Assembly (NCBI GenBank): GCA_964019135.1
Contig: OZ025249.1
Location: 19,307,088 to 19,371,087 of the forward strand
Source of the DNA: Arenicola marina
Taxonomy: Eukaryota > Annelida > Polychaeta > Arenicolidae
Length of the DNA: 64,000 nucleotides
Direction: 5' to 3'
In this document: positions 1 to 46,666 of the stretch, in pieces
Position numbering within the stretch: the stretch's first letter is position 1
Layout of the letters: each line of letters starts with the position of its first letter
The notes under the pieces: model-generated
Seen by the model: the letters and a program-made list of their open reading frames with translations, nothing else
Told to the model about the DNA's origin: nothing
The model's database searches: none
Position numbers and translations under genes: made by a program

Positions 1-3000
1 CAGACCGCCATCACACAGCTACGGTAAGTGACAAGGGTCCATGGCCAAGACTCAGACCGCCATCACACAGCTACAGTAAGTGACAAGGGTCCATGGCCAA
101 GACTCAGACCGCCGTCACACAGCTACAGTAAGTGACAAGGGTCCATGGCCAAGACTCAGACCGCCATCACACAGCTACAGTAAGTGACAAGGGTCCATGG
201 CCAAGACTCAGACCGCCATCACACAGCTACAGTAAGTGACAATGGTCCATGGCCAAGACTCAGACCGCCATCACACAGCTACAGTAAGTGACAAGGGTCC
301 ATGGCCAAGACTCAGACCGCCATCACCCAGCTACAGTAAGTGACAAGGGTCCATGGCCAAGACTCAGACCGCCATCACACAGCTACGGTAAGTGACAAGG
401 GTCCATGGCCAAGACTCAGACCGCCATCACACAGCTACAGTAAGTGACAAGGGTCCATGGCCAAGACTCAGACCGCCGTCACACAGCTACAGTAAGTGAC
501 AAGGGTCCATGGCCAAGACTCAGACCGCCATCACACAGCTACAGTAAGTGACAAGGGTCCATGGCCAAGACTCAGACCGCCGTCACACAGCTACAGTAAG
601 TGACAAGGGTCCATGGCCAAGACTCAGACCGCCATCACACAGCTACAGTAAGTGACAAGGGTCCATGGCCAAGACTCAGACCGCCATCACACAGCTACAG
701 TAAGTGACAAGGGTCCATGGTCAAGACTCAGACCGCCATCACACAGCTACAGTAGATGACAAGGGTCCATGGCCAGGACTCAGACCGCCATCACCCAGCT
801 ACAGTAAGTGACAAGGGTCCATGGCCAAGACTCAGACCGCCATCACCCAGCTACACTAAGTGACAAGGGTCCATGGCCAGGACTCAGACCGCCGTCACAC
901 AGCTACAGTAAGTGACAAGGGTCCATGGTCAAGACTCAGACCGCCGTCACACAGCTACAGTAAGTGACAAGGGTCCATGGTCAAGACTCAGACCGCCGTC
1001 ACACAGCTACAGTAAGTGACAAGGGTCCATGGCCAAGACTCAGACCGCCATCACACAGCTACAGTAAGTGACAACGGTCCATGGTCAAGACTCAGACCGC
1101 CATCACACAGCTACAGTAAGTGACAAGGGTCCATGGCCAAGACTCAGACCGCCATCACCCAGCTACAGTAAGTGACAAGGGTCCATGGCCAAGACTCAGA
1201 CCGCCATCACCCAGCTACACTAAGTGACAAGGGTCCATGGCCAAGACTCAGACCGCCATCACACAGCTACGGTAAGTGACAAGGGTCCATGGCCAAGACT
1301 CAGACCCCCATCACACAGCTACAGTAAGTGACAAGGGTCCATGGCCAAGACTCAGACCGCCATCACACAGCTACAGTAAGTGACAAGGGTCTATGGCCAA
1401 GACTCAGACCGCCATCACACAGCTACAGTAAGTGACAAGGGTCTATGGCCAAGACTCAGACCGCCATCACACAGCTACAGTAAGTGACAAGGGTCCATGG
1501 CCAAGACTCAGACCGCCATCACACAGCTACAGTAAGTGACAAGGGTCCATGGCCAAGACTCAGACCACCATCACCCAGCTACAGTAAGTGACAAGGGTCC
1601 ATGGCCAAGACTCAGACCGCCATCACACAGCTACAGTAAGTTACAAGGGTCCATGGCCAAGACTCAGACCACCATCACCCAGCTACAGTAAGTGACAAGG
1701 GTCCATGGCCAAGACTCAGACCGCCATCACACAGCTACAGTAAGTTACAAGGGCCCATGGCCAAGACTCAGACCACCATCACCCAGCTACAGTAAGTGAC
1801 AAGGGTCCATGGCCAAGACTCAGACCGCCATCACCCAGCTACACTAAGTGACAAGGGTCCATGGCCAAGACTCAGACCGCCATCACACAGCTACAGTAAG
1901 TGACAAGGGTCCATGGCCAAGACTCTGACCGCTATCACACAGCTACAGTAAGTGACAAGGGTCCATGGCCAAGACTCAGACCGCCGTCACACAGCTACAC
2001 TAAGTGACAAGGGTCCATGGCCAAGACTCAGACCACCATCACCCACCTACAGTAAGTGACAAGGGTCCATGGCCAAGACTCAGACCGCCATCACACAGCT
2101 ACAGTAAGTGACAAGGGTCCATGGCCAAGACTCAGACCGCCATCACACAGCTACGGTAAGTGACAAGGGTCCATGGCCAAGACTCAGACCGCCATCACAC
2201 AGCTACAGTAAGTGACAAGGGTCCATGGCCAAGACTCAGACCGCCATCACACAGCTACAGTAAGTGACAAGGGTCCATGGCCAAGACTCAGACCGCCATC
2301 ACACAGCTACAGTAAGTGACAAGGGTCCATGGCCAAGACTCAGACCGCCATCACCCAGCTACAGTAAGTGACAAGGGTCCATGGCCAAGACTCAGACCGC
2401 CATCACACAGCTACGGTAAGTGACAAGGGTCCATGGCCAAGACTCAGACCGCCATCACACAGCTACAGTAAGTGACAAGGGTCTATGGCCAAGACTCAGA
2501 CCGCCATCACACAGCTACAGTAAGTGACAAGGGTCCATGGCCAAGACTCAGACCGCCATCACACAGCTACAGTAAGTGACAAGGGTCCATGGCCAAGACT
2601 CAGACCACCATCACCCAGCTACAGTAAGTGACAAGGGTCCATGGCCAAGACTCAGACCGCCATCACACAGCTACAGTAAGTTACAAGGGTCCATGGCCAA
2701 GACTCAGACCACCATCACCCAGCTACAGTAAGTGACAAGGGTCCATGGCCAAGACTCAGACCGCCATCACACAGCTACAGTAAGTTACAAGGGCCCATGG
2801 CCAAGACTCAGACCACCATCACCCAGCTACAGTAAGTGACAAGGGTCCATGGCCAAGACTCAGACCGCCATCACCCAGCTACACTAAGTGACAAGGGTCC
2901 ATGGCCAAGACTCAGACCGCCATCACACAGCTACAGTAAGTGACAAGGGTCCATGGCCAAGACTCTGACCGCTATCACACAGCTACAGTAAGTGACAAGG

Positions 3001-6000
3001 GTCCATGGCCAAGACTCAGACCGCCGTCACACAGCTACACTAAGTGACAAGGGTCCATGGCCAAGACTCAGACCACCATCACCCACCTACAGTAAGTGAC
3101 AAGGGTCCATGGCCAAGACTCAGACCGCCATCACACAGCTACAGTAAGTGACAAGGGTCCATGGCCAAGACTCAGACCGCCATCACACAGCTACGGTAAG
3201 TGACAAGGGTCCATGGCCAAGACTCAGACCGCCATCACACAGCTACAGTAAGTGACAAGGGTCCATGGCCAAGACTCAGACCGCCATCACACAGCTACAG
3301 TAAGTGACAAGGGTCCATGGCCAAGACTCAGACCGCCATCACACAGCTACGGTAAGTGACAAGGGTCCATGGCCAAGACTCAGACCGCCATCACACAGCT
3401 ACAGTAAGTGACAAGGGTCCATGGCCAAGACTCAGACCGCCATCACACAGCTACAGTAAGTGACAAGGGTCCATGGCCAAGACTCAGACCGCCATCACCC
3501 AGCTACAGTAAGTGACAAGGGTCCATGGCCAAGACTCAGACCGCCATCACACAGCTACGGTAAGTGACAAGGGTCCATGGCCAAGACTCAGACCGCCATC
3601 ACACAGCTACAGTAAGTGACAAGGGTCTATGGCCAAGACTCAGACCGCCATCACACAGCTACAGTAAGTGACAAGGGTCCATGGCCAAGACTCAGACCGC
3701 CATCACACAGCTACGGTAAGTGACAAGGGTCCATGGCCAAGACTCAGACCGCCATCACACAGCTACAGTAAGTGACAAGGGTCCATGGCCAAGACTCAGA
3801 CCGCCATCACACAGCTACAGTAAGTGACAAGGGTCCATGGCCAAGACTCAGACCGCCATCACCCAGCTACAGTAAGTGACAAGGGTCCATGGCCAAGACT
3901 CAGACCGCCATCACACAGCTACGGTAAGTGACAAGGGTCCATGGCCAAGACTCAGACCGCCATCACACAGCTACAGTAAGTGACAAGGGTCCATGGCCAA
4001 GACTCAGACCGCCGTCACACAGCTACAGTAAGTGACAAGGGTCCATGGCCAAGACTCAGACCGCCATCACACAGCTACAGTAAGTGACAAGGGTCCATGG
4101 CCAAGACTCAGACCGCCGTCACACAGCTACAGTAAGTGACAAGGGTCCATGGCCAAGACTCAGACCGCCATCACCCAGCTACAGTAAGTGACAAGGGTCC
4201 ATGGCCAAGACTCAGACCGCCATCACACAGCTACAGTAAGTGACAAGGGTCCATGGTCAAGACTCAGACCGCCATCACACAGCTACAGTAGATGACAAGG
4301 GTCCATGGCCAAGACTCAGACCGCCATCACCCAGCTACAGTAAGTGACAAGGGTCCATGGCCAAGACTCAGACCGCCATCACCCAGCTACACTAAGTGAC
4401 AAGGGTCCATGGCCAGGACTCAGACCGCCATCACACAGCTACGGTAAGTGACAAGGGTCCATGGCCAGGACTCAGACCGCCATCACCCAGCTACGGTAAG
4501 TGACAAGGGTCCATGGCCAGGACTCAGACCGCCATCACACAGCTACAGTAAGTGACAAGGGTCCATGGCCAAGACTCAGACCGCCATCACACAGCTACAG
4601 TAACTGACAAGGGTCCATGGCCAAGACTCAGACCGCCATCACACAGCTACAGTAAGTGACAAGGGTCTATGGCCAAGACTCAGACCGCCATCACACAGCT
4701 ACAGTAAGTGACAAGGGTCCATGGCCAAGACTCAGACCGCCATCACACAGCTACAGTAAGTGACAAGGGTCCATGGCCAAGACTCAGACCGCCATCACAC
4801 AGCTACAGTAAGTTACAAGGGTCCATGGCCAAGACTCAGACCACCATCACCCAGCTACAGTAAGTGACAAGGGTCCATGGCCAAGACTCAGACCGCCATC
4901 ACCCAGCTACACTAAGTGACAAGGGTCCATGGCCAAGACTCAGACCGCCATCACACAGCTACAGTAAGTGACAAGGGTCCATGGCCAAGACTCTGACCGC
5001 TATCACACAGCTACAGTAAGTGACAAGGGTCCATGGCCAAGACTCAGACCGCCGTCACACAGCTACAGTAAGTGACAAGGGTCCATGGCCAAGACTCAGA
5101 CCACCATCACCCAGCTACAGTAAGTGACAAGGGTCCATGGCCAAGACTCAGACCGCCATCACCCAGCTACACTAAGTGACAACGGTCCATGGCCAAGACT
5201 CAGACCGCCATCACACAGCTACAGTAAGTGACAAGGGTCCATGGCCAAGACTCAGACCGCTATCACACAGCTACACTAAGTGACAAGGGTCCATGGCCAA
5301 GACTCAGACCGCCATCACACAGCTACAGTAAGTGACAAGGGTCCATGGCCAAGACTCAGACCGCCATCACACAGCTACAGTAAGTGACAAGGGTCCATGG
5401 CCAAGACTCAGACCGCCATCACCCAGCTACAGTAAGTGACAAGGGTCCATGGCCAAGACTCAGACCGCCATCACACAGCTACGGTAAGTGACAAGGGTCC
5501 ATGGCCAAGACTCAGACCGCCATCACACAGCTACAGTAAGTGACAAGGGTCTATGGCCAAGACTCAGACCGCCATCACACAGCTACAGTAAGTGACAAGG
5601 GTCCATGGCCAAGACTCAGACCGCCATCACACAGCTACAGTAAGTGACAAGGGTCCATGGCCAAGACTCAGACCACCATCACCCAGCTACAGTAAGTGAC
5701 AAGGGTCCATGGCCAAGACTCAGACCGCCATCACACAGCTACAGTAAGTTACAAGGGTCCATGGCCAAGACTCAGACCACCATCACCCAGCTACAGTAAG
5801 TGACAAGGGTCCATGGCCAAGACTCAGACCGCCATCACACAGCTACAGTAAGTTACAAGGGCCCATGGCCAAGACTCAGACCACCATCACCCAGCTACAG
5901 TAAGTGACAAGGGTCCATGGCCAAGACTCAGACCGCCATCACCCAGCTACACTAAGTGACAAGGGTCCATGGCCAAGACTCAGACCGCCATCACACAGCT

Positions 6001-9000
6001 ACAGTAAGTGACAAGGGTCCATGGCCAAGACTCTGACCGCTATCACACAGCTACAGTAAGTGACAAGGGTCCATGGCCAAGACTCAGACCGCCGTCACAC
6101 AGCTACACTAAGTGACAAGGGTCCATGGCCAAGACTCAGACCACCATCACCCACCTACAGTAAGTGACAAGGGTCCATGGCCAAGACTCAGACCGCCATC
6201 ACACAGCTACAGTAAGTGACAAGGGTCCATGGCCAAGACTCAGACCGCCATCACACAGCTACGGTAAGTGACAAGGGTCCATGGCCAAGACTCAGACCGC
6301 CATCACACAGCTACAGTAAGTGACAAGGGTCCATGGCCAAGACTCAGACCGCCATCACACAGCTACAGTAAGTGACAAGGGTCCATGGCCAAGACTCAGA
6401 CCGCCATCACACAGCTACGGTAAGTGACAAGGGTCCATGGCCAAGACTCAGACCGCCATCACACAGCTACAGTAAGTGACAAGGGTCCATGGCCAAGACT
6501 CAGACCGCCATCACACAGCTACAGTAAGTGACAAGGGTCCATGGCCAAGACTCAGACCGCCATCACCCAGCTACAGTAAGTGACAAGGGTCCATGGCCAA
6601 GACTCAGACCGCCATCACACAGCTACGGTAAGTGACAAGGGTCCATGGCCAAGACTCAGACCGCCATCACACAGCTACAGTAAGTGACAAGGGTCTATGG
6701 CCAAGACTCAGACCGCCATCACCCAGCTACAGTAAGTGACAAGGGTCCATGGCCAAGACTCAGACCGCCATCACACAGCTACGGTAAGTGACAAGGGTCC
6801 ATGGCCAAGACTCAGACCGCCATCACACAGCTACAGTAAGTGACAAGGGTCCATGGCCAAGACTCAGACCGCCATCACACAGCTACAGTAAGTGACAAGG
6901 GTCCATGGCCAAGACTCAGACCGCCATCACCCAGCTACAGTAAGTGACAAGGGTCCATGGCCAAGACTCAGACCGCCATCACACAGCTACGGTAAGTGAC
7001 AAGGGTCCATGGCCAAGACTCAGACCGCCATCACACAGCTACAGTAAGTGACAAGGGTCCATGGCCAAGACTCAGACCGCCGTCACACAGCTACAGTAAG
7101 TGACAAGGGTCCATGGCCAAGACTCAGACCGCCATCACACAGCTACAGTAAGTGACAAGGGTCCATGGCCAAGACTCAGACCGCCGTCACACAGCTACAG
7201 TAAGTGACAAGGGTCCATGGCCAAGACTCAGACCGCCATCACCCAGCTACAGTAAGTGACAAGGGTCCATGGCCAAGACTCAGACCGCCATCACACAGCT
7301 ACAGTAAGTGACAAGGGTCCATGGTCAAGACTCAGACCGCCATCACACAGCTACAGTAGATGACAAGGGTCCATGGCCAAGACTCAGACCGCCATCACCC
7401 AGCTACAGTAAGTGACAAGGGTCCATGGCCAAGACTCAGACCGCCATCACCCAGCTACACTAAGTGACAAGGGTCCATGGCCAGGACTCAGACCGCCATC
7501 ACACAGCTACGGTAAGTGACAAGGGTCCATGGCCAGGACTCAGACCGCCATCACCCAGCTACGGTAAGTGACAAGGGTCCATGGCCAGGACTCAGACCGC
7601 CATCACACAGCTACAGTAAGTGACAAGGGTCCATGGCCAAGACTCAGACCGCCATCACACAGCTACAGTAACTGACAAGGGTCCATGGCCAAGACTCAGA
7701 CCGCCATCACACAGCTACAGTAAGTGACAAGGGTCTATGGCCAAGACTCAGACCGCCATCACACAGCTACAGTAAGTGACAAGGGTCCATGGCCAAGACT
7801 CAGACCGCCATCACACAGCTACAGTAAGTGACAAGGGTCCATGGCCAAGACTCAGACCGCCATCACACAGCTACAGTAAGTTACAAGGGTCCATGGCCAA
7901 GACTCAGACCACCATCACCCAGCTACAGTAAGTGACAAGGGTCCATGGCCAAGACTCAGACCGCCATCACCCAGCTACACTAAGTGACAAGGGTCCATGG
8001 CCAAGACTCAGACCGCCATCACACAGCTACAGTAAGTGACAAGGGTCCATGGCCAAGACTCTGACCGCTATCACACAGCTACAGTAAGTGACAAGGGTCC
8101 ATGGCCAAGACTCAGACCGCCGTCACACAGCTACAGTAAGTGACAAGGGTCCATGGCCAAGACTCAGACCACCATCACCCAGCTACAGTAAGTGACAAGG
8201 GTCCATGGCCAAGACTCAGACCGCCATCACCCAGCTACACTAAGTGACAACGGTCCATGGCCAAGACTCAGACCGCCATCACACAGCTACAGTAAGTGAC
8301 AAGGGTCCATGGCCAAGACTCAGACCGCTATCACACAGCTACACTAAGTGACAAGGGTCCATGGCCAAGACTCAGACCGCCATCACACAGCTACAGTAAG
8401 TGACAAGGGTCCATGGCCAAGACTCTGACCGCTATCACACAGCTACAGTAAGTGACAAGGGTCCATGGCCAAGACTCAGACCGCCGTCACACAGCTACAC
8501 TAAGTGACAAGGGTCCATGGCCAAGACTCAGACCACCATCACCCACCTACAGTAAGTGACAAGGGTCCATGGCCAAGACTCAGACCGCCATCACACAGCT
8601 ACAGTAAGTGACAAGGGTCCATGGCCAAGACTCAGACCGCCATCACACAGCTACGGTAAGTGACAAGGGTCCATGGCCAAGACTCAGACCGCCATCACAC
8701 AGCTACAGTAAGTGACAAGGGTCCATGGCCAAGACTCAGACCGCCATCACACAGCTACAGTAAGTGACAAGGGTCCATGGCCAAGACTCAGACCGCCATC
8801 ACACAGCTACGGTAAGTGACAAGGGTCCATGGCCAAGACTCAGACCGCCATCACACAGCTACAGTAAGTGACAAGGGTCCATGGCCAAGACTCAGACCGC
8901 CATCACACAGCAACAGTAAGTGACAAGGGTCCATGGCCAAGACTCAGACCGCCATCACCCAGCTACAGTAAGTGACAAGGGTCCATGGCCAAGACTCAGA

Positions 9001-11457
9001 CCGCCATCACACAGCTACGGTAAGTGACAAGGGTCCATGGCCAAGACTCAGACCGCCATCACACAGCTACAGTAAGTGACAAGGGTCTATGGCCAAGACT
9101 CAGACCGCCATCACACAGCTACAGTAAGTGACAAGGGTCCATGGCCAAGACTCAGACCGCCATCACACAGCTACGGTAAGTGACAAGGGTCCATGGCCAA
9201 GACTCAGACCGCCATCACACAGCTACAGTAAGTGACAAGGGTCCATGGCCAAGACTCAGACCGCCATCACACAGCTACAGTAAGTGACAAGGGTCCATGG
9301 CCAAGACTCAGACCGCCATCACCCAGCTACAGTAAGTGACAAGGGTCCATGGCCAAGACTCAGACCGCCATCACACAGCTACGGTAAGTGACAAGGGTCC
9401 ATGGCCAAGACTCAGACCGCCATCACACAGCTACAGTAAGTGACAAGGGTCCATGGCCAAGACTCAGACCGCCGTCACACAGCTACAGTAAGTGACAAGG
9501 GTCCATGGCCAAGACTCAGACCGCCATCACACAGCTACAGTAAGTGACAAGGGTCCATGGCCAAGACTCAGACCGCCGTCACACAGCTACAGTAAGTGAC
9601 AAGGGTCCATGGCCAAGACTCAGACCGCCATCACACAGCTACAGTAAGTGACAAGGGTCCATGGCCAAGACTCAGACCGCCATCACACAGCTACAGTAAG
9701 TGACAAGGGTCCATGGTCAAGACTCAGACCGCCATCACACAGCTACAGTAGATGACAAGGGTCCATGGCCAAGACTCAGACCGCCATCACCCAGCTACAG
9801 TAAGTGACAAGGGTCCATGGCCAAGACTCAGACCGCCATCACCCAGCTACACTAAGTGACAAGGGTCCATGGCCAGGACTCAGACCGCCATCACACAGCC
9901 ACGGTAAGTGACAAGGGTCCATGGCCAGGACTCAGACCGCCATCACCCAGCTACGGTAAGTGACAAGGGTCCATGGCCAGGACTCAGACCGCCATCACAC
10001 AGCTACAGTAAGTGACAAGGGTCCATGGCCAAGACTCAGACCGCCGTCACACAGCTACAGTAAGTGACAAGGGTCCATGGCCAAGACTCAGACCACCATC
10101 ACCCAGCTACAGTAAGTGACAAGGGTCCATGGCCAAGACTCAGACCGCCATCACCCAGCTACACTAAGTGACAACGGTCCATGGCCAAGACTCAGACCGC
10201 CATCACACAGCTACAGTAAGTGACAAGGGTCCATGGCCAAGACTCAGACCGCTATCACACAGCTACAGTAAATGACAAGGGTCCATGGCCAAGACTCAGA
10301 CCGCCGTCACACAGCTACAGTAAGTGACAAGGGTCCATGGTCAAGACTCAGACCGTCATCACACAGCTACAGTAAGTGACAAGGGTCCATGGCCAAGACT
10401 CAGACCGCCATCACACAGCTACAGTAAGTTACAAGGGTCCATGGCCAAGACTCAGACCACCATCACCCAGCTACAGTAAGTGACAAGGGTCCATGGCCAA
10501 GACTCAGACCGCCATCACACAGCTACGGTAAGTGACAAGGGTCCATGGCCAAGACTCAGACCGCCATCACACAGCTACAGTAAGTGACAAGGGTCCATGG
10601 CCAAGACTCAGACCGCCATCACCCAGCTACACTAAGTGACAAGGGTCCATGGCCAAGACTCAGACCGCCATCACACAGCTACAGTAAGTGACAAGGGTCC
10701 ATGGCCAAGACTCTGACCGCTATCACACAGCTACAGTAAGTGACAAGGGTCCATGGCCAAGACTCAGACCGCCGTCACACAGCTACAGTAAGTGACAAGG
10801 GTCCATGGCCAAGACTCAGACCACCATCACCCACCTACAGTAAGTGACAAGGGTCCATGGCCAAGACTCAGACCGCCATCACCCAGCTACACTAAGTGAC
10901 AACGGTCCATGGCCAAGACTCAGACCGCCATCACACAGCTACAGTAAGTGACAAGGGTCCATGGCCAAGACTCAGACCGCCGTCACACAGCTACAGTAAG
11001 TGACAAGGGTCCATGGCCAAGACTCAGACCGCCGTCACACAGCTACAGTAAGTGACAAGGGTCCATGGCCAAGACTCAGACCGCCGTCACACAGCTACAG
11101 TAAGTGACAAGGGTCCATGGCCAAGACTCAGACCGCCGTCACACAGCTACAGTAAGTGACAAGGGTCCATGGCCAAGACTCAGACCGCCGTCACACAGCT
11201 ACAGTAAGTGACAAGGGTCCATGGCCAAGACTCAGACCGCCATCACACAGCTACGGTAAGTGACAAGGGTCCATGGCCAAGACTCAGACCGCCATCACCC
11301 AGCTACAGTAAGTGACAAGGGTCCATGGCCAAGACTCAGACCGCCGTCACACAGCTACAGTAAGTGACAAGGGTCTATGGCCAAGACTCAGACCGCCGTC
11401 ACACAGCTACAGTAAGTGACAAGGGTCTATGGCCAAGACTCAGACCGCCATCACACA
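1..11457 (+). repeat. 52-bp minisatellite carrying a 5' splice site in every unit (about 220 copies)
   Basis: The unit is 52 bp and starts before the window. Most units contain a perfect GTAAGT donor (ctaca|gtaagtgac) on the + strand, the strand of the coiled-coil gene whose next exon starts at 11727. Read in the phase that exon needs, the sequence before the donor translates as GSMAKTQTAITQLQ, and joining to the exon gives ...ITQLQ-LDFEELD, a plausible coiled-coil helix. The repeat therefore looks like an exon end plus its donor. Variants include cggtaagt (donor kept), cactaagt (donor lost), gtagatgac and gtaactgac. Shared rare variants reveal larger blocks spaced 3068 bp (59 units), 2392 bp (46 units) and 1040 bp (20 units). 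The last unit decays at 11441-11457. Period and donor are seen directly; derivation from an exon is inference because that exon lies left of the window. Confidence 0.97.
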
Positions 11458-11726
11458 GGGACGGCCATCCCAGTAGGGTCCATGACCAAGATTCATATTT
11501 TCAGTTACTATTAATGCCAATTAATTATCATGCTGTTATACGAACAGCATACAAGAACTTCAAATTATGTAAGTCACATGGTTGAAGAGTTAAGTAACGC
11601 CCGAGATCAATTTATGTCCCTTATCTTTGACCGGTTGGGAATGCTGTTTGAGAAGCTCTAGTTTTACATTGACTCATACAGTGGCAAGATCAGATTTTTG
11701 CTTTAATGCAAATTTTTTACTCCTAG
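11458..11726. other. Array edge and intron 3' end
   Basis: A degraded half-unit of the 52-bp repeat (cagtagggtccatgaccaag) is followed by unique A/T-rich intron sequence. It ends in a pyrimidine-rich acceptor, ttttttactcctag, directly before 11727. Nothing else is recognised. Confidence 0.6.
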
Positions 11727-13046
11727 GTTGGACTTCGAGGAACTTGACATTCGAATGAAGACCGGTCAGCGATTGCAAGACGATTTATCGACTTCGTTAG
11801 TCCAAGTTACCGGTAAGCAGAAGATATTTGTACACGAGCTATCAAAAACATGGTTTGAGTATCCTTTAGAGGGGTATAAAATTCACATTGAGGCCTACAG
11901 ATATTAACACAAATATATGTACTCATTTTCAATTGTTTCATTGGGATTTAATGGTAATTCCAGTTTGTACGGCTATATCGTGCCATTTACTATCATCAAA
12001 CCGTATTCCTAATGTATAAGTCTTACATTGGATTGTGTATTTCACAGGGCGACTGAAATCGCAAGAGAAAGACTACAAAGAGGAGGTGACAGACAGATGT
12101 CAGGTACTGGAGAAATTGGAGGTAAATATATAATACAAACGTTTATGAACCACATTTGCACACGATTGCCTTTCATGTGGATGGTTCTGGATAGTGATAT
12201 CAAAGTAATGTCACAGTGACAATATCTATTATTTTTGTAAGTGATTGCTTAGCCGATTTTGTACATCCGTGTTTAATTTCCAGTTGATTAATGACACACT
12301 ATACTACGGTGCTTTCAGCATGACCTAGCATCGAACCTGTCCCTCAACAAGCAACTGGCGGCCTATTATAGAAAACTCCAGAATGACTATGTGGAGGTCA
12401 AAAACAAAATGCTTGACAAATTCGACGACCGGGTCAACGTTGAACACACGATAAAAGACATCAAACAGGTAAAGACTTTTTGTGAGGGTACAGATTTTCT
12501 TAGTCCTCGATGGGGTGGTCTATGCCTTCTTGGTAAACCGTGAGCTAAACAGTGCCGAGAAACCTGCCGAGTGAAACTCGTTTTATTTATATTGAATTAA
12601 CAGCTATATGTAATTAAATGTATTTAAATGTAGTTAATTGAATCTTAACTATCTATTTCCTCCCCCAGTTGCAAGGATTACAACGACATATGCAACACGC
12701 GATGCTGGAGTATTGTAAATACCGAGGGGACTTTAATAAAGGAGAACTTTCTCGCATGAAGTCTGAGGCACTTCATAATGGAGTACGCGTCTCAGAACTT
12801 CAAACCGAAATGGACCGCGCTTTGGAAACGATCGCCGGTTTCCTGCAGCACCAGGTAGATGGAGATACCGTGCGGAAGATGGCCATGGAAAAGGTTGCAC
12901 GAGAAGAAGGGAAGCGACCAGATGTCTCACATAACCAAATTGACGGGGCACTGCGACCACGGAAGGTAGCAGACCACCAAGTTCCCAGAGCCGTACAGCT
13001 CCCACCCAGTCGCCACCCAGTTACTTTAGCCGAAGTTGCATTATAG
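11727..13046 (+). CDS. Coiled-coil protein, last four coding exons (5' part outside window)
   Basis: Four exons join in phase: 11727-11812, 12048-12121, 12319-12468 and 12669-13046 (stop TAG). Each has an AG acceptor, the first three have GTAAGC, GTAAAT and GTAAAG donors, and the split codons agree (G|GG gives Gly). The visible C-terminal part is about 228 residues, mostly charged helix rich in Lys, Glu, Gln and Leu (LDFEELDIRMKTGQRL, KSQEKDYKEEV, LQNDYVEVKNKML), as expected of a coiled coil. The last roughly 40 residues are Pro/Arg-rich and probably unstructured. No catalytic motif is visible. The upstream intron carries the 52-bp donor array. I do not recognise the family from sequence. Linkage with GAREM and NOL4 homologues makes a CCDC178 relative a testable guess only. 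It is convergent with the protease gene. Confidence 0.85.
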
Positions 13047-25521: not shown

Positions 25522-28500
25522 TTATGATGTAAGGTCTTCGGAAAACCGGTATTTCGGTCTCCAGCCTCGATGGACGAAGTCGAGTAGTTTCTTCCTGTCG
25601 AGTGCGTTCAGCCCGGGGAAGGCTTCCTTCAGGATCTGCTCATCCAGCTCCGTCAGCTGGTGGCCGTCAATGAGTTCCTCTCGGAAGCGCCCGATGGCGG
25701 CCTGCCCGAGGCCGATGTGCCTAAGACACAGCCCCACCTCCTCCACGCTGAGTCCGTCCAGCCGGTCCGGAGGCCGCCACCACCACAGCTCGCTCAGCGA
25801 TGTGTCGTTATCCCGCCAGGTGTCGCTGCCGGTAGAGCGCGGCCCCAGGTAGATGCCGGAGTCTCCCGTCAGGAGACTGTTGGCCGGGGCCGGAAGCGAC
25901 TGCTGGTAGAGCGAAACGGCGTCGTAGCCGGCGGGGGCGCCTGGGGGGATGCTGGAGCGGGAGTCCGGGAGAGATACGGAGCGGTGAATCCCACCCCCGC
26001 CAGACTCCGGCATGCCGTCCCCGCCGCTGGATAGCGTGACTTCAGCGGCGGGATTATCCTCGATCTGGTCAAAGAGGACTGCCAAGAACTTGTGAACGTC
26101 TTCCTGGCTTTGAAAGGAAGCGGGCACGGTCTTGTCGGCGCGAGCGTCATCCCGCCGCCCGTCATCCCGCCCGTCATCCTCCCCGTCCCCGCCCTGGCCC
26201 GCCCCCTGTCCCGCCCCGCCCCGGTGGCTCTGTCGTCGCTTCAGCTGCCGAAGTGAGTCGGTCAAGAAGGCATCGAGCCGGTCCCTATCGCAACCGTCCT
26301 TCAGGCTGGCGGTGTTATTATCATCACTAGCTATTACCGGCCTTTGTAAGGCTCTCCGGTCTTGATCCCCAGCGGGTACAGACTCCATAGCCTCCCTCGC
26401 CGACTGCCCTGAAGGCCGTGACGGTATGGTGACCACCGCCTCATCCTGTGATGACCCGGGGCCCTGGATACGCTTCATCGACAGGGCGTACAATGGGTCG
26501 CCCCCCGCGTCTGTACCGAGAACACCAGGCGGTAGAGAGAGGCCCGGGGCCGACGGATGGAGGAGACCCCGGCGCAGCTCTACCGGCAGGAGATAGCCGT
26601 CGTCGTCATGACTGGAGGACTCGGTCGGCACCCCTTGGGTTCCACTGGTCGATGAAGACGCCAGGCTTTGAGCGCGCTCAACACCTGCCGCTGGGTTATC
26701 CAATGGATCCACAGATCTGCCACCGACAGCGCCGTCTCCCGGCGTCTTCGAACATCGCTGAGAACAAGCGGGGATGACGTCATAGCTTCCATCGTCACTG
26801 TCACAAGTGTGAGAACCGACGTCCGAGTCTCTCGCCACCGTATCTGAACCAGTGTCCTCCTTTTCCTCAAGCTCGGAATGCCGGTTGACGTCCCCGACTG
26901 GGGGGACCAGTGGCAGCTCTCTGCCATTGACTAACGTCCCCCTGGTCCCCTGGGAATCCCCGTCACCGTGACACACGGATGTGTCTGTCAGGGAATCGCC
27001 GTCCGAGCTGTACTCACTCGACGTGTTCGTCAAGGTTTGCAAGCTGAGTTGCTCATCTCGCGTTAGTCCGTTGGTAAACGCTCCCCAATCACCGAATTCG
27101 GTCTTCAGGCTCTGCAGGACCTTCATTCTATCCAGGAAACTGTCCCCGTGCGCCCTGCAGAACTCCACAGCGGAGAGCCCCGCGGGGGAATCTTCCGGAT
27201 TGTCACCCTTCGTCGTGTCCTTCTGGAACTGAACGTCCGCATCCAGAGGAAATTCCACCAGGAAATGGCTGGTATCGGCGCCCCGGGTGACGATGGAACA
27301 GCCCAGGATGCTGGACTCATGGTACACCTCCTGCAGCGTGACCATCCCGGAGAAGGTCTTCAGGCTGGCGGGGCGGTGACCATGCACCAACCGAAGCCGG
27401 ATGGGTAGAGAGGACATCCTAATGATGTCGGCCAGCTGGTAGGACGTCCCGGGGATGAGTGGCGAGTCGCGCCCCCCGACGGGAGAGAATGCACCCTGAG
27501 TGTCGAATGAACACAGCAGCTTCCCGCCGCGACTGTCTCTGCATTGTAAGTAGAAGTGTTCGTGCCCGGGGCAGCAGTGGGCGGCGACCTTGTGGCGGGA
27601 GGCGGGCGGCAGGCAGCGGACCAGACACCCCAGGACGGCCCCCGTCAGGCGGGCCCGGGAGGCGTCCACGCACACGGCCTGGGCGGCGAGCACGTGGCCG
27701 GCCGGGAGCCGCTCCGGGAGGTAGCCCGCCTGGCCCCCTCCCCGCAGGACGTCGGTGTCCGAGAGCAGGAGGAAGGCCTTCACCTGAAGGGTGGCCAAGT
27801 CCTCGATTGTGTTCACCATGGTGACCGACGGGTCAGCGCTATCCATCACCTGGAACCAACCTGCAAGAAAAAGCAAACCGATATTTATTCTGTTGTAGCG
27901 TATAGCACGAATAGATCCAGTGGGAGAGGGGTCAAGGTATCGCCACCTCCCCCTCTCCCACCCGCCGCCCGGTTTGTTGAGCACAACTACGCCGGTCTAT
28001 AGTGCAAATTGTGCTCTAATTTAGTTGTGAACGATATGTTGTTGTGGACGCCCGCACCCCTCCCACCTCTTGGTTGCCACCCCATCCAGTCTCCTCCCCC
28101 GTCGTCAGTGTTACTCCGAAAGTGGACCCCCACCCTGAACACGCCTTGTATAGGCCAGATAAGGACGATAGCGTCGCCATCGTCAGCTCCGCACGCCAAT
28201 TAAGGTTAACAACCATGTGAGATCATTTTAATACCATACCCATAACCATACCCATATCATGACATTCTCCTTTAGAGTTCGGTTTATAATGGATATTCAA
28301 CTGCGATATATAAGACACATTGTGCCTTTGTCTATCTTCGTCTCAGGATAGACACTATGCAACAACATATTATCGTTAAAAGAAATCTCGGTGCCATAGC
28401 AATGTGGTCAAGCATTACATGTACACGCAGCTTGCGGATGAAAAAAGCCATTCACCGAGTTGTTAAGATGCCAACCACTGACTCTGGGTTCAGTTGACGT

Positions 28501-30007
28501 ATCTTTAAGGTACATTAAACTTCAATGATTGAACCATTAAAGTCGTGGGAGGATTCGGTGACCATACGCAAAGGTCTACGGGGGGAAGAATATAAATACT
28601 CATCCGCGACACCCTCTGTCGAGAGATCTGCTGAGTGGGAGTAAAGATAATATATGTATAATGTGAAGCTAATATATGCACATAATGAACTTAATGTATA
28701 TAGTAATTTTCATATAAATTAATTAATTATTATATATCATGGAGCTTTATAAGATTTCAATTTGTTACAATCAATCCCTTAATGTTCTTTTCATTAAAAT
28801 TTCAACTTTAATAGAACAGCCCATCCTTTAACGGCCCCGAAGTGGTGAGAATGGTTAGCTACAAACTCTTCCGATATGCAGATTAGGCCGCTGTGTGGGC
28901 TCTGGTTCAGGTTCGGTGTGAGAAACCGCTGGGAGCACTTAGGATGACCTGATGGCCTTACAGATTGGCTGGCTCCCTGGTTAGTTGTATTGTTCATGAT
29001 GCACCTTACCAATTAGCTGCTGGTAACGCGGAAAATTAAGCATTTATTATTTATATTCTATTTACATAAATGAAATAGAATAATTGAAGGTCTAGGCGAA
29101 TCGTGGTCTGTTCGGAATCTCAATGCGTTAACAGATTAAATAGTTGAACTAACTGTTCGCGTGGTTGGTAATTAATGAAGCCACTCTTGCTGTTTAAACG
29201 TATTACTCCTGTTATTTTGCTATACAAATGAGATAATATAAAATTGCCAAAAAAAAAAACCAGCCTTTCCGCCACCCAAAAAAATTAATTTTTTGTTCTT
29301 ACCTGGATAGCTGGCCAGAAGGATTAACGGTGTCTCGATTTTACTTTATATAAAAGATATATAAATAAACTTGACAAAAAAAAAATGTCCACTCGGAAAG
29401 AAAAATGTGTTCGAAATGATTGTTCTTTCCTGGATAGCTGGCTGAAATGGTTAAATATAAATACTAAAATAAAATGGACAAAAAACCCAGCCTTTCCACC
29501 AAGAAAGTTGTGTTCGAAATGCATGTTCTTACCTGGGTAGCTGGCCGGAATGGTTAACATTATCTCATCCAACGGTTCGCCTAAACTCGAGGTGGTAGAC
29601 TTTCTCCTCAGCGAAGTAGGTTTAGCCTTCCTGGCCTGTCTATGATGACTAGGTCGCTTCCCTTGGTTAGGGTGCTTCCCACTAAGGTTCCGGTCCACAC
29701 TGGCCTTGTGGGCCGGAGGGGGTAGATCCACCATTGGCGCCGTGGTGGAGGCGAGCACCTTGAGGCCTCGCTGGACGTTGTACAGCAGAAGATCACTCTC
29801 CGCTAGGTGGGCCGACATCACTGGCAGGACTGAGCGCTGGTGGGGGCTCAGGCGCGCCACCTGGGGGAGGCACCACCTGGCGGCCACCTCCCGAACTCCT
29901 GCCACGTGGTCGCTTCCCGCCGCGGGGCGACTGGGGATGTTGGCGCTGCTCTTCTTCAAGGTCGGCGTCACGGGCCAACGAAACCACTCCGTCTCCATGG
30001 GATCCAT
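25522..30007 (-). CDS. GAREM: GAREM homologue: CABIT domain plus C-terminal SAM domain, 2 coding exons
   Basis: Exon 1 is 29533-30007 (ATG, MDPMETEW) and exon 2 is 25522-27860 (stop TAA). The donor G|GTAAGAAC and acceptor ttgcag|GT complete a Gly codon, giving about 937 aa against 876 in human GAREM1. The CABIT domain spans about residues 45-400 (CLPQVARLSP, then IPASYPG-WFQV across the junction, like the vertebrate PQIARL and PVHYAGQFK blocks). The middle is long, acidic and Ser/Gly-rich with tyrosine motifs (DDDGYLLP, GSYDVIP, SGIYLGP) that could bind SH2 adaptors. The SAM domain is at about residues 860-925 (LSVEEVGLCLRHIGL, ending GWRPK as in vertebrates). In vertebrates GAREM is a Grb2/SHP2-linked adaptor in EGF-receptor to ERK signalling. 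That role here is inferred. Exon 1's donor is copied in the downstream intron. Confidence 0.94.
27861..29292. other. GAREM intron 1, unique part
   Basis: Unique A/T-rich intron sequence with no exon or repeat recognised before the junction copies that begin at 29293. Confidence 0.5.
29293..29560 (-). repeat. Three tandem copies of the GAREM exon-1/intron junction
   Basis: The genuine junction ccagctacccag|gtaagaac has its GT at 29531-29532. Copies recur downstream on the - strand: ccagctatccag|gaaagaac near 29428 and ccagctatccag|gtaagaac near 29301. Similarity extends at least 20 nt into the exon (TTAACCATT before it) and well into the intron: catttcgaacaca follows in copies 1 and 2, and gaaaggctgg plus a T run follows in copies 1 and 3. 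Spacing is 103 and 127 bp. Copy 2 has lost GT, while copy 3 keeps a full donor. Confidence 0.85.
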
Positions 30008-30536: not shown

Positions 30537-30556
30537 TCTGTGCCATATATTGACGT

Positions 30557-33631: not shown

Positions 33632-34106
33632 ACAATAAAGACAGATATTTCCATGACGTGGCATCTCTCATATGGGTCTGGAAGGGGGCGCAAGTGTCCA
33701 GTGTCGATTTCAAAATGTTTAACCCCCCCCCAGACCCATTCTCATGCTTTGGCATTTCTATCAGTGAAAATCAGACAGTCAAAGGACTTGGGAACACCGT
33801 GATAAAACAAATCGAACCAGCGTCGTCACCAAGTCTGTTCACAGCACGGAAGACGGAATGTTTGTAAATGACCGTGACGGTAGAGTGCATCCCGTAATCA
33901 CATCACCCTACTTTCCCGCTCCGACGGACACGTGGTAGACTTAAGCAGGGTGTTTACATGCACATCAATTTGACGAAAATGGCATCAAGCATGTCCACTA
34001 TTGACCTTGTCTTTTGCCAGTTTGTTTGTTGGGCATCGTCCTTTCACGAGTTTCCAGTTTTCCGGTTTCGCATTTTCCAGTTTTTCGGTATCTGGTCACC
34101 ACCCAC

Positions 34107-36088: not shown

Positions 36089-38448
36089 TCCTGACACCTG
36101 GCGGAGAAATATTAAAACTTCAGATCAGCGAATAAAACATTTTCTATCGCCACGTGGTGTGAAGACCGCCTGTCAAAGATTTTGCTTCCTGTGTCTATCG
36201 CTGGGTTGTGGCTCTATAAACGGCCCTTTATTCTGCGAAGACGCCACGCGAGTTGTCTGACTGCTACACTCGACAGTCTGTTGTAGGGGAGCCTACGCCT
36301 CATCTACGAGGTCGAGGATATCACTCCACCCCAGGCACGGTGCGAGTCATGGCCCTGGGGGCCACGTATCTAAACAATCTACGGCCCCCACGCCACCTAC
36401 CCCCGGTGGCAACGCTTTGAAAGGCTTTGCGTTTTATCGCCTCGCTTCACCGACTCGTGCTCCGAGAGAATGCCCCTCTCCGATACCACTCGACGGCTAC
36501 CAAGTTTGCTTACGGCGTAACACAGCTACCATAGATCTACATACGTATATATGTGTGCCCGGTGTGTGGGGAGAGGTGATAGAGCGTTCGTATGCCTGCA
36601 AAAATCCCTCCGTCGAAATGCCGGCGTGAATATATCGACCATTTTGGAGTGCATAGAGCTGTTACCTTACCTACCTACCCACCTATATATGCCAACCCAC
36701 CTATCTATCTACCCGCTACTCCACCCGCCCTCCCACCTATCTTCCCGCTACGCAACCCCCCCCCCCCCCACCCCCACCTCCCTTCCCACCTACGCACCTA
36801 CACTTCGCTATCCACCAGCCCGGAGCGGTGAGTCACAGGAACGCAACCAGAACGGTCTACTTACCTGTGGCCCTGGTTGACCTGGCACTCTTCATGTACA
36901 AAGCCAGAGCATACACGCGTCTGCAAAAACATCACAACAATGCTAATGCGAACACCCCCCGCCACCCCTGCAAATATAAACCATTCCTATGTCTGGAAGC
37001 CGGGCCCCCTTACCAGCTTGAATGAACGTCCGAAAGTCAAATATGTCGTCGTTTACATGCCGCCCCTGACCAAGAAATAACTAGTGCATTTGCATTATAA
37101 AGGACCATCAATTGTTGCTGTGTTGTACACATGTACATTAATAGAATATCCTCATTGATTTTATGAACAGCGACCTGTTATATAAAAGGGATGTTTGCGA
37201 TTATTAGAATCAAAGGCTCCGTCCGAGTCAACAAAAAGATCCCATGCGTCATTGTTTCGTAAGGTTTGCTATTTATATCCCGTCAGCATTAATTGTGCCT
37301 CCCATCGACCTCGTTTTCTTCAGAAATATACAGCTCAGCCCTGTTGCCGATGTGCAAATAGTTCCGTTACTATCAGGTAGTCTGTGTTGAGAAGACACCC
37401 AAACCGTGGGACAAATATTCGGACGGCTTAATTTGCTATAATGTAACGCTATTATTATGAAGAAAAAGCAATTGGTGTATATACTGTACGAAACGCATAT
37501 GTCCAAGGACTTTTAATGCCAATTCTTCAGAACATGTTTGACCCAATCTGATCGCATTCTCATGAGAAAAATATCTAGGAGCTTTGGCATAAAGAAGGGA
37601 AATAGTAAAAACAAACTTCCCGGAACTTATACCCATACACCATTTAATCGTTCATTAACGTAATGTCATGCATCTGGTTCATATGACATTGATACACATC
37701 TCAAAATATTTTTTTATGCCAAATAACTGATTAGTTATTTCAACCTAAAGTCCTTTATTATTTGGTCGTACATGATAAAAGCTGTGTTAGCAGGTTAGAG
37801 ACGGAAACAAAATGTTTGTTTTATTCTGAGCGTCTTGCAAAATGTTCAATTGTTATCCAGAAACAACCACAATAAAGTGCGCTAGTATTCGTTGCATAAT
37901 GTTTATATATATATATTCGTTGCGCGTAAACCGAGGAGCACTCGTAGAAATTAAGATGCAAACGAATTATAAATAGTCGTGAAAATGAATATAGTGAAAT
38001 CCGATATGAACGACGTTTCTTGGAGCCAACTCTTCTGTAACTGCGAGTGTGGAACAGCGAACTCCAGGACAACGTTGTCAGTCCCAATGGCTGCGTGGTG
38101 GTCTGGATCTCGGGTTGCCGCCCGAAGCCGGCATTAATGGTTTTTAAAAAAATCAAACAATCCCGAAATGTCCTCATGTCAATCATTATATCAGTTTTCT
38201 TCACGCAAATAAGGAATGAGCACGGTTAATGTTTCATGATGTTTCATTAGTTACTAGTTAAAAAGGTTGTCAAGATTTCCGTTTATAGAAGGTATCTTTC
38301 TTCGTTTGAACGTAACGTAACGTAAATGTAGGTTCCCCTTGGAAGAGCTCGTGCGCTGTGGGTGCGAGACGGGCAGTTATACCATTTATATTGATGTGTA
38401 ACTCCGTTACAAAATATTCCAGGTTAAACGCTATTCCAGATAATATGG
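36089..38448. other. Intergenic, 5' flank of the CABIT gene and beyond
   Basis: C-rich CTAC/CCAC simple sequence at 36665-36800, including poly(C) at about 36758-36770. The rest is unique A/T-rich DNA. No exon recognised. Confidence 0.4.
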
Positions 38449-41875: not shown

Positions 41876-44800
41876 TTAATTCTGCTGCAGTAGAAGTTGC
41901 TCCAGCTCGTCTGCCGAGCGGTAGAGAAAGGCGGCCGACTCTCTATACCCGGCCACCAGCTGTTTGATGGTGGCCACCTCACTCGCGTTCAACTGGTTCT
42001 TAGACGGCGAGTTCGCAGATTTCTTCATACTTAGATCTGTCGGGCCTAAAATGTAGACAAAAACAATACATGAAAAATCAAATCAAATAGTAGTACATAT
42101 GATTCAGTAAAATGTAATTGAAGAGAGCAAACCACAATTAGCGACATTTTGTGTTTACTAAATCCTTTGATAAGATAGTATATGAATGACATAATTCATC
42201 CAAGAAACTATATTTGTTTTTGATAAAATGCGTCTATGTCCAATAGGACGACAATGCAGATGCATACGATTGGTACTATTGATACTATCGGTACTAGAAC
42301 TATTTCTGTTGCTTAACAACAGTGTCAGGGGCTGGATGTATTGGAGACAAGTATACAGCGCAGCAGGGTGTGGGGTAGAGACGTTGCACTGACCGTTCTG
42401 GACCTGGGCGGACAGCGGCGTGTGGGGTATGACAGGCGCGTGGTGGTGGTGGTGGTGGGCGGGATGTTGCTGGTAGTTGTTGGGGAACCCGGGCCGGAAT
42501 ATACCGCTGTTGTTGGCGAAGAAAGGCGAAGGCAGCTCGGCAGGAGGTCGGAATGCTGTGGTGGACTGAGGGGGTAGGTGCCGCAAGAAATCGCCAGCAC
42601 CTCCGGCGGCGATGCTGCCGGCACCCCCGCCACCCCCGCCGCCGCCGCCCCCACTTCCCCCAGCCATGCTCTGACTGGGGCGCTCAGCCGCTGCCGCAGC
42701 CGCAGCCGCAGCCGCCGCCACAGTGGCAGCCGCCGCCTGCAAGACTGGGGAATGCTGAGACGGGAGCTGGCTTGGCGCCAGAGTCCTGGGCGGCGTATCG
42801 TGACTGGCAGGCAGGGTCATGCCGGCTCCGGTGCTGCTGCCGTTGGCGCTGGTTCCACTTGGGGCGCCTGCCTCACGTGCCATGGGGAGCGGGGTGCCTG
42901 CCGTGGCCGCCAGCCCGCCGCCCGCCGCAGCCTGCAATTTCAGGAATGCAACTCCGTCAGCCATCAGTCGTCACCCGAACGCAATAGATCTGCCCCGTTA
43001 ACCTTTCACCCCCATCCAATCGGATAATATCCAAGGATTAACTGTTCGCGTTTACCCCAAAATTACACACGCTAACGTGGGTATAAGTGAGAAAACCCCT
43101 CGGAACCATGGTAGCCTAAAACAATGCAAAGTCGATCGATACTCGGTTTACTGACGCCGAACAGTTAAGGACCCATTGGCAGAGACAACTAATAACATCC
43201 AGACCGGGTTATATACAGATGAATGAGACAGCGGTCTTAATCTTACGTCTGGCCTTAGTCAGCACAGTACCATAATTGAACATACCAGCCGCCATCTTCT
43301 TTACATGGTCGCTACCATATAGGACAATCTTTGTAGAGCGATACTTGGGCCTACCCAAAGTTACAGCTTCGTGCCTGAATCTTAATTCCACGATTCCTAT
43401 TACATAAAGAGCATAGATATTTACATTAAATTTATATTATATTTGCTTCACACGGTGGATAATAAAAAAGTGATCACTAGCGTACAATTACCGGGAGTGG
43501 GTCCATGCCCATGCGCATGCGCTTGGCATTGTTGCTCTCGTTTTCGCAGGCCACAGCCAGAATGCCCTCTGCCGCCGCAGAGGTCAGATGAGGCGGCGTC
43601 GGTCGCAGCTGTAGAAAACAACAAATCTTTTTAGAACTTAAAAACCAGAAACAAAAGTTAAAGGCAAAGACATGAGTCAAGACATGAAAAACCATCCGTG
43701 TGTATGGATCAGGGGAGGGGGGGGGGGGTCTGCATAAGGATAACAGGTATTCCTACAGACGACAACCAGTGTTGGTCAGGCCAGTATAAGTCACAAGGTC
43801 TAAGTAGGCTTATAACGTATCCGTTTGCTCAAACACCTTATTAGTCATTTTATGATTCTATCAGATCCGCTCGACTGGTTCCCTGTCATAATTTGGCCCA
43901 GATCGCGCGGCAGAGGTACCCACCTGTTCCCAGCCATTGGCCTCCTTGCTGCGGCGCATGCGCCGACACGACTTGAGGTAGGTGCGCACTCTCTTGCGCG
44001 ACCTCTCGTGGAACTCCGGGAACTGTCTGTCGCAGGCGTCTAGGATGGCCTGGATCTTGTCCTTTGGCTGCTTGGAGATCGGGATCACGCGATCCAGATT
44101 CTCATCCACAAATAGGCGAACGAACATCTGAAAACAGAGAGAGTGTCAACTGATGATTTACAGAAAAGGCATTAAAGACTTTAATACTCCAAGCAGGGGT
44201 CAAAACATACATTAGAGGCTACCATACGCGTACAAAGCTTTGACAAGTTAAAAGTCGATAATTACATTAAATCCTTGAAGACGTTCAGGTTAGTGATTTA
44301 CGTTAAAGACTTTAAGACCTTCAGGGGTGTGACTTACATTAGAGCCTTTGAGACGTTTCGCGTTGTGACTTGCATAAAAGGCTTTGAGACGTTTAGGGTG
44401 GGGACTTACATTAATGGCTTTGAGACGTTTAGGGTGGGGACTTACATTAGAGACTTTGAGACGTTCAGGGTGGGGACTTACATTAAAGGCTTTGAGACGT
44501 TCAGGGTGGGGACGTACATTAAAGGCTTTAAGACGTTCAGGGTGGGGACTTACATTAAAGGCTTTAAGACGTTCAGGGTGGGGACTTACATTAAAGGCTT
44601 TGAGACGTTCAGGGTGGGGACTTACATTAAAGGCTTTGAGACGTTCAGGGTGGGGACTTACATGGAAAGCTTTGAGACGTTCAGGGTGGGGACTTACATT
44701 AAAGGCTTTGAGACGTTCAGGGTGGGGACTTACATGGAAAGCTTTGAGACGTTCAGGGTGGGGACTTACATTAAAGGCTTTGAGACGTTCAGGGTGGGGA

Positions 44801-46666
44801 CTTACATTAAAAGCTTTGAGACGTTCAGGGTGGGGACTTACATTGAAGGCTTTGAGACGTTCAGGGTGGGGACTTACATTAAAGGCTTTGAGACGTTCAG
44901 GGTGGGGACTTACATTAAAGGCTTTGAGACGTTCAGGGTGGGGACTTACATTGAAGGCTTTGAAACGTTCAGGGTGGGGACTTACATTAAAAGCTTTGAG
45001 ACGTTCAGGGTGGGGACTTACATTGAAGGCTTTGAGACGTTCAGGGTGGGGACTTACATTAAAGGCTTTGAGACGTTGAGGGTGGGGACTTACATTAAAG
45101 GCTTTGAGACGTTCAGGGTGGGGACTTACATTAAAGGCTTTGAGACGTTTTGGGTGGGGACTTACATTGAAGGCTTTGAGACGTTCAGGGTGGGGACTTA
45201 CATTAAAGGCTTTGAGACATTCAGGGTGGGGACTTACATTAAGACTTTGAGACGTTCTGGGTGGGGACTTACATTAAAGGCTTTGAGACGTTCAGGGTGG
45301 GACTTACATTAAAGGCTTTGAGACGTTCAGGGTGGGGACCTACATTAAAGGCTTTGAGACGTTCAGGGTGGGGACTTACATTAAAGGCTTTGAGACGCTC
45401 CGGATCATGACCGACGGACATCTTCTCGTCATCGTCATCGTCATTGTCCTCGTCATCGTCTCTGCTGACGTCATCAACGCCTCCTTCGCTCGCCTTGGTT
45501 GAACTCTGCAGCCAACAAGTACAACATTGTAGATGGTTAAATCAAACGCGCATTAAAATATATTTAACCACTTGTTCTAATTAAGCTCTTTTGAAGGCCA
45601 GTTCTGAAGGAAGCTTTAGCATAGATATTTCTCTGACCACCCGGTACCATGGAAAATACACGCACGAGATCGATACCCAATGGCTATATAATATTTCAGG
45701 GATGAATGACAGACACTGCGGTGACTCCGGTCTCCGGGAAAGCCGTTACTCACATCCAGGCTATCGCTGCTCGCTCTCCTTTTGCGCTCGGGTGACCTTT
45801 GTCGACCGGCATGGCGGAGGAGGACAGGGTGGCGGGGCTGGCCAGGGTGGGCGGGGTGGGGAGTGAGGTGTGGCCGGTCAGGGCCAGGGGCATGGCGGCC
45901 GGTTCGGCGATCCCCCCGTTGTGGTCGGCGGCCATGTTGAGCGGACCGTCGGCCATCTCGCCCTTGACGACCAGCGCCGCGCAGGTGGAGCCCCCTTTCA
46001 CCATCAGGCCGTGGAAGCCGCCACTGATACCGCGGCCGTTGGTGGCGCTGCTAACGCCTATTCTGCTCTCGCCCGGGTCGGAGCCGGTGGTGGGAGGAGG
46101 AGGGCGGCTTGCGGCGGCGGCGGCGGCGGCGGCGGCTGGCGTGGCGGGGCTGGCGGGGTCCGGGCTGGCGGGGGGCGGGGCCGTGCTGGCCCGCCCGCTG
46201 CTGGACACGGGCGGCGGGGGGCTGCCGGACAGGCGGCCGACGGGGGCCCGGTGCAGGTTAATGGGACAGTCGCTGTTAATGCTGTTCCTGGCCGTTGTCT
46301 CACGAGGGGAGTCTTAAAACAGAGAAACAAGTTCATAGTTAGTCACTGCTGGGATTGTTCTTTTAAAAATATCTGCGTTTAGTGTTGTCGGGTTCCCCTC
46401 TGACGCCCCTTAGTAGTATGGACCCGGTACTGACCAGGAGCGTGGAAGGGTGTGGCTGTGGGTGGGTGGTGGTCGGGGCTGGGGGAGACGGAGGGAGGGG
46501 GGCCTGGCGACTGTGTGGGTAATGGCACGTTGAAGCGGGAGCCGCAGGGATGGTGGTCCATGGCTCGTGTGTCTCCAGGCCCAGGGTCCCGGCCAACGGG
46601 GTTATTTGGGCGGGGGAGACGCACCCGGCCGGCTGCCGCCCGACCGCCCATCCCATCAAACTACCC
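41876..46666 (-). CDS. NOL4: NOL4 (nucleolar protein 4) homologue, C-terminal seven exons; 5' end lost in the gap
   Basis: Exons on the - strand: 46435 up to the gap, 45754-46312, 45380-45503, 43924-44127, 43492-43608, 42394-42931, 41876-42045 (stop TAA). All split codons match, and from 46312 onward they give 569 aa. Exon 3 has the acidic run and PERLKAFN. Exon 4 is the family core ([28 protein letters not shown]). Exon 5 has [10 protein letters not shown] and AKRMRM. Exon 6 is low complexity (Ala, Gly and His runs). Exon 7 has GPTDLSMKK, a PxDLS motif of the CtBP-binding type, then the conserved tail [20 protein letters not shown]. This is a near-textbook NOL4 C terminus. The family's N-terminal domain is not in the window. 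Exon 2 is Pro/Ala-rich, with a poly-Ala run. The protein is nuclear and its molecular role is poorly known. Confidence 0.95.
44261..45379 (-). repeat. 36-bp minisatellite made of the NOL4 exon end plus its splice donor (about 31 copies)
   Basis: On the - strand the array starts exactly at the exon boundary 45380/45379. The exon ends CCG GAG CGT CTC AAA GCC TTT AAT|GTAAGT. Each unit repeats CCT GAA CGT CTC AAA GCC TTT AAT|GTAAGT CCC CAC, that is PERLKAFN with only silent differences, plus 12 nt of intron. The unit is 36 nt (12 codons) and open in the exon's frame ([12 protein letters not shown]). Two units near the exon, around 45240-45310, are 35 bp. Units at the far end (44261-44400) are degenerate, suggesting age increases away from the exon. 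Confidence 0.96.

Follow-up and report, generated by a model that had tools for sequence, protein, structure and literature searches.

Probable mirage minisatellites at donor splice sites of predicted genes in a 64-kb window of the Arenicola marina genome

Minisatellite-like duplications of exon-intron boundaries are known from amphioxus. According to the accessible part of a report on the globin genes, BflGb6 carries them at a 3' splice site and BflGb9 at the end of exon 2; the name "mirages" was taken there from work on Adh, and intron gain from mirages was proposed (PMC3087553). A second report, likewise accessible in part, describes repeats of 60 bp and 108 bp at splice sites of lancelet PGBD5 and cites Adh and TnC (PMC3902484). 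In the text available, mirage-like structures are also cited for retinol dehydrogenase and presenilin, and units of 10-72 bp are given for Adh3, of 150-160 bp for BflGb6 (6 or 3 units) and of 157 bp for BflGb9, while PGBD5 carries 60-bp units in 2 or 7 and 108-bp units in 3 or 6 copies. Unequal or intra-strand crossing-over has been suggested as the source (PMC3087553). Splicing appears to be undisturbed, as suggested by Adh3 data and reverse transcription PCR of the globins (PMC3087553), and the same is suggested for PGBD5 (PMC3902484). Exon copies with splice sites were described in introns around VCBP3 in a study whose genome-wide use of Tandem Repeats Finder (TRF) yields, in its accessible part, densities only (PMC2632668). 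Literature searches, judged from their result lists, showed no genome-wide survey of mirages, and the consulted text of PMC2206037 is silent on them. Here, we analyze a 64-kb stretch of the annelid Arenicola marina (GCA_964019135.1, contig OZ025249.1, positions 19,307,088 to 19,371,087), hereafter the window, in which an exon end together with its donor has been copied tandemly into the following intron of NOL4 and of a GAREM-like gene; an array in a coiled-coil gene is probably a third case.

Tandem repeats were called with TRF at score 50, giving 40 rows across the window, and 18 donors and 20 acceptors were annotated by eye in five predicted genes, namely the coiled-coil gene, a papain-family protease gene (Pfam domains Peptidase_C1 and I29), the GAREM-like gene, a second CABIT gene and NOL4. 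The gene models are predictions from sequence, in which certain positions are guesses, among them the last NOL4 donor.

The NOL4 array lies on the minus strand at 44262..45397 (TRF and copy alignment), with a period of 36 and 31.6 copies according to TRF. Its founder is the 3' end of the exon at 45380..45505 (minus strand), whose terminal codons read ERLKAFN and whose donor, GTAAGT, starts at 45379. The unit consensus is identical to the final 27 exon bases at 23 positions, the final 18 being without mismatch by eye, and carries the exon end plus its donor. With the three exons that flank and follow the array as a Pfam query, HTH_NOL4_2nd (PF23079) matched at 7.2e-49 over profile positions 1-95 of 95, beginning 7 residues before the junction; the following exon, placed by exon reading and Pfam, is located at 43924..44127 (minus strand). 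Since ERLKAFN is the start of this conserved domain, it is the exon that gave rise to the array. The donor GT is present in 31 of the 32 full aligned copies. Among the 31 donor-like sites listed, the first three are in frame, the fourth is out of frame because one unit is 35 bp long, and sites 5-31 are preceded by a stop. Splicing from donor 2 or 3 would lengthen the protein in frame by 12 or 24 residues, and use of donors 4-31 would, as judged from frames and stops, harm the protein. The shift at donor 4 and the stop before donor 5 rule out a coding repeat for most of the array and leave donors 2 and 3 as possible coding extensions. Identity to the unit is 0.56 in the first aligned piece, which is exon sequence partly beyond the repeat, 0.89 in the second and mostly 0.92-1.0 in mid-array. 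The last six copies show 0.94, 0.94, 0.89, 0.81, 0.78 and 0.75, followed by a one-base remnant, so that decay is strongest in the copies closest to the next exon. Further upstream in the gene, the exon at 45750-46312 seems to switch frame between two overlapping open reading frames, perhaps because the sequence contains an error or the exon is wrongly modeled, and owing to this apparent switch the joined NOL4 exons give no open protein.

In the GAREM-like gene, three diverged copies of the exon end and donor were recognized by local alignment at 29225..29599 on the minus strand. The first coding exon occupies 29533..30007 (minus strand, exon model; ATG at 30007 by eye, true donor at 29532), and the second coding exon lies at 25523..27860 (minus strand, exon model and Pfam). 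The joined protein shows Pfam CABIT and SAM_1 matches; the name GAREM is the label of an earlier reader. The donor positions are 29532 (GT), 29429 (GA, broken) and 29302 (GT), so that the copies are spaced by 103 bp and then 127 bp, the last being 230 bp from the first donor. This repeat is absent from the TRF list at score 50. Its local alignment score is 74 (33-74 for the copies themselves). With 302 queries of 80 nt from ten chosen stretches, only one other place scored above 74 (84, near 14.9 kb), and the next unrelated score was 31. That other place, at 14900-15055 in an intron of the protease gene, is an imperfect local duplication that is not at an annotated exon; each of its copies contains TTTGCAG, which resembles an acceptor.

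The third array occupies positions 1..11458 on the plus strand (TRF and copy alignment) and consists of 220 full copies, all of exactly 52 bp and without a single indel. As the window begins within the array, this number is a lower bound. Each unit comprises an exon-like part of 23 nt ending in CAGCTACA, followed by a donor. The donor hexamers of the 220 copies are GTAAGT (192), CTAAGT (21), GTAGAT (4), GTAACT (2) and GTAAAT (1); 199 copies thus retain the GT, at a phase that suits the next exon. Translated, the exon-like part gives QTAITQL and a remaining CA; it joins the acceptor at 11727 in phase, yielding QTAITQLQ joined to LDFEELDIRM at the start of the exon 11727..11812 (plus strand), and on inspection the coiled coil keeps its hydrophobic register over the join. 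Further exons of this gene on the plus strand are located at 12048-12121, 12319-12468 and 12669-13046, the last one up to the stop. When the donor is skipped, the frame runs by eye into CAG TAA, and because of this in-frame stop, together with a unit length that is not a multiple of three, a coding repeat was rejected. The protein gave no Pfam match at 0.001 and no PDB match at 1. As the founding exon is not contained in the window, we infer this mirage from the unit and from its fit to the next exon. Comparison of the unit order showed that units at a lag of 59 are identical in 47 per cent of cases, with a longest run of 32, which indicates block duplications and, within the single haplotype analyzed, agrees with turnover of the array.

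An earlier sequence-only reading of the window had described repeats across their own 5' splice sites in three genes, all in sense orientation, with 52-bp units in about 220 copies, 36-bp units in about 31 copies and three GAREM copies of about 115 bp. The sense arrangement across the donor is seen in NOL4 and the GAREM-like gene and is probable for the coiled-coil gene. Both large arrays agree with these sizes and copy numbers, and the three GAREM-like copies are present, although with the spacing given above and with a broken middle donor. The amphioxus mirages mentioned there are in print, as far as the accessible text goes (PMC3087553, PMC3902484). In agreement with those mirages, a tandem unit crosses the exon-intron boundary in NOL4 and the GAREM-like gene, and presumably in the coiled-coil gene, and many but not all copies keep the splice signal (199/220, 31/32 and, in the GAREM-like gene, 2/3). 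The differences are the size of one array, with at least 220 copies, and the occurrence of three genes of this type within 64 kb; 220 copies are not claimed as a record, the comparison covering copy numbers other than those of Adh. The Rogers model of intron gain through tandem AG/GT proto-splice sites, as cited in the available text of PMC3087553, shares the tandemly copied splice signal but differs in that no new intron or exon was recognized here. Ordinary intronic or intergenic minisatellites, several of which lie in the window away from annotated splice sites, resemble these arrays in their homogenized interior and decayed edges; here, in contrast, coding sequence and a donor are part of the founding unit. 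The structures are therefore large examples of the known mirage phenomenon and not a new kind of structure.

We consider it probable, at roughly 0.75, that they are mirage minisatellites derived from ordinary tandem duplication across an exon end and tolerated through continued use of the first donor. A short duplication of between 36 and about 127 bp, produced by slippage or unequal exchange, would straddle the exon end by chance. The first donor would stay next to the true exon and the spliceosome would continue with it, while additional copies would end up in the intron, where the array could expand, homogenize and decay as any intronic minisatellite does. Both the slippage or exchange step and the in vivo choice of the first donor are presumed. 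A leaning towards donors over acceptors, if real, would then be a survival filter and not damage directed at donors: extra donors come to lie downstream of the one in use, whereas extra acceptors would precede the true one and capture splicing. An extension of this idea, that minisatellites of this lineage are kept preferentially at 5' splice sites by one-sided tolerance, with the first donor always winning, donor-spanning arrays able to grow to hundreds of copies and acceptor-spanning arrays being purged, is put forward tentatively, and we regard it as somewhat doubtful. If it holds, array size genome-wide would read out the spliceosome's rule for choosing among identical donors.

The sequence-only reading went further and proposed a recurring mechanism acting at donors. 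Exon-intron edges would then be mutational hot spots, at which transcription-coupled breaks, U1-bound pausing or R-loops raise the birth rate of minisatellites. All three cases being sense-oriented donors fits this proposal, as does the count of centered 40-mers with a local copy, which is 2 for the 18 donors and 0 for the 20 acceptors. Copying is frequent in the window, however: 44.7 per cent of positions are copied within 1.5 kb at 28 of 40, with first copies making up 2.8 per cent. By position, the probability of 2 in 18 donors was 0.077 to 0.088 over four thresholds and 0.032 when 19.9-22.0 kb, the site of a 1360-bp duplication, was omitted. Random placement of all 35 duplicated segments gave P values of 0.11 and 0.21 for two edge widths, and restriction to the 15 segments that reach or exceed 100 bp gave 0.025 and 0.083; in this test, one segment edge covers an acceptor as well. 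Counting the coiled-coil gene as a third case lowered P to 0.0018 to 0.056, or 0.0018 to 0.011 with segments of at least 100 bp only, these values being rough because its donor is not among the 18. Moreover, the window was picked by a reader who had already seen the pattern, so that the P values cannot carry a claim of enrichment, and donor placement above chance is not established within the window. The literature points both ways. The first repeats at exon 3 and at intron 4 of PGBD5 are said, in the accessible part of PMC3902484, to abut 5' splice sites, whereas repeats at both 5' and 3' sites appear in the same source and the BflGb6 mirages lie at the 3' splice site (PMC3087553, in part).

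The base composition and folding of the units bear on the same proposal. R-loops depend on a sense strand rich in G. On that strand, the GC skew is -0.14 in the 52-bp unit and -0.41 in the NOL4 unit, which is the wrong sign in both large arrays and disfavors the R-loop-linked instability suggested earlier; in copy 1 of the GAREM-like repeat it is near zero (0.036). Doubled 52-bp and NOL4 units fold no better than shuffled sequences (z -0.78 and 0.41), and slippage driven by hairpins was rejected, as none of four doubled units, these two donor units among them, showed excess folding. Altogether, instability targeted to donors appears unlikely to us.

Selection for the repeated donors themselves has also to be considered. 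They could be retained as a splicing device that gathers U1 small nuclear ribonucleoprotein, delays splicing or tunes isoforms, and the high retention of GT in both large arrays as well as the in-frame donors 2 and 3 of NOL4 would suit such a role. Conservation within the arrays argues against it. In the 52-bp array, the donor block of 9 nt has 61 variant cells, and 40 of 52 blocks are equally or less variable; in NOL4, 9 of 36 blocks are no more variable than the donor block, which is at best mildly conserved (counted over 30 of the 32 full copies, the last two, decayed ones being excluded). In the exon part of the 52-bp unit, eight variant types are non-synonymous and two synonymous. The copies are thus without clear constraint. 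In addition, one GAREM-like donor is lost and donors 4-31 of NOL4 are frameshifted or placed behind a stop, which confines the in-frame property noted by the sequence-only reading to donors 1-3. A splicing device is accordingly highly improbable.

Copy numbers, or some of the arrays, could in part be products of the assembly, which is not seamless, as seen from 200 N at 46667-46866; the block repeats at lag 59 in the 52-bp array could likewise be the work of the assembler. This explanation is extremely improbable in view of the variety among copies, with haplotype numbers of 30/220 (52-bp array), 20/32, 94/303 and 26/31 in four arrays, and of the GAREM-like copies, which are too diverged.

Several points weigh against ordinary duplication with continued use of the first donor. 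That this donor is used in vivo is itself something we infer, and the Pfam match in NOL4 fits donor 1, 2 or 3 equally, because every repeat ends in ERLKAFN. The founding exon of the coiled-coil gene lies beyond the window. Slippage, exchange and end-joining fit the founding step equally well. The counts of 2/18 versus 0/20, or the P values of 0.0018 to 0.056 with the off-window case, leave room for a true donor effect. Finally, variability in both large arrays is higher in the exon part than in the intron part, with 6.9 versus 2.8 variant copies per position in the 52-bp array and 1.4 versus 0.67 in NOL4, which tolerance of duplications does not explain.

About 190 copies of GTAAGT (192 of 220) lie just past the presumed true donor and offer a natural test of how the first among many equal donors is selected by U1 and exon definition. 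If donor arrays exceed acceptor arrays genome-wide, the difference would gauge how far donors and acceptors diverge in their tolerance of duplication and would bear on intron growth and intron gain.

The units of the three donor arrays (52-bp, GAREM-like and NOL4) show no likeness above chance among the best 12 of 42 comparison rows, and the two large units show none in a further comparison, in line with the earlier description of them as unrelated. About 20 unit pairings were compared. Other arrays of the window are a 303-copy array of 36 bp at 49935-60839 (TRF), a minisatellite about 10.9 kb long that lies upstream of the NOL4 exons annotated here, a 43-bp array of 31 copies at 32105-33449 (TRF) and a 14-bp array of 20 copies at 30274-30535 (TRF), each away from all annotated splice sites. 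An exon origin of the 303-copy array was rejected, its unit being by eye without a GTRAG donor on either strand; its AG|GTGTGG matches the donor consensus at 6 of 9 positions. With lenient gap costs, the alignment of the 303-copy unit with the reverse-complemented 43-bp unit was equaled by 0 and 9 of 6000 real segments and by 0 of 3000 dinucleotide shuffles; middle costs raised these numbers to 25 and 20 segments and 15 shuffles, and strict costs to 208 and 186 segments and 109 shuffles. Under lenient costs, 2 and 1 of 6000 segments and 9 of 3000 shuffles equaled the pairing of the NOL4 unit with the reversed 303-copy unit; under middle costs, 82 and 57 segments and 138 shuffles did so. Both likenesses are left unexplained. 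A common origin of the arrays was discarded, as the donor units are unlike one another and the other likenesses are not transitive.

Nine open frames, seven of them in 45.7-49.9 or 60.9-64.0 kb, gave no Pfam match, and ten further ones elsewhere gave a single match below threshold (CAND6-7_N, 19.8 bits versus a cut-off of 27.4). Rfam gave no match at gathering scores. Two adjacent CABIT-domain genes lie in the same orientation at 25523-36120, with a SAM match in one only. The linkage of GAREM, the coiled-coil gene and NOL4 is reminiscent of human chromosome 18. At 19979-22726, a tandem duplication with a spacing of 1360 bp contains a C-rich minisatellite of 33 bp within each copy. Adjoining it at 22720-22850, a long inverted repeat (GGGTTTATCTCAGCA ... 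TGCTGAGATAAACCC) was seen by eye, which is perhaps a small mobile element.

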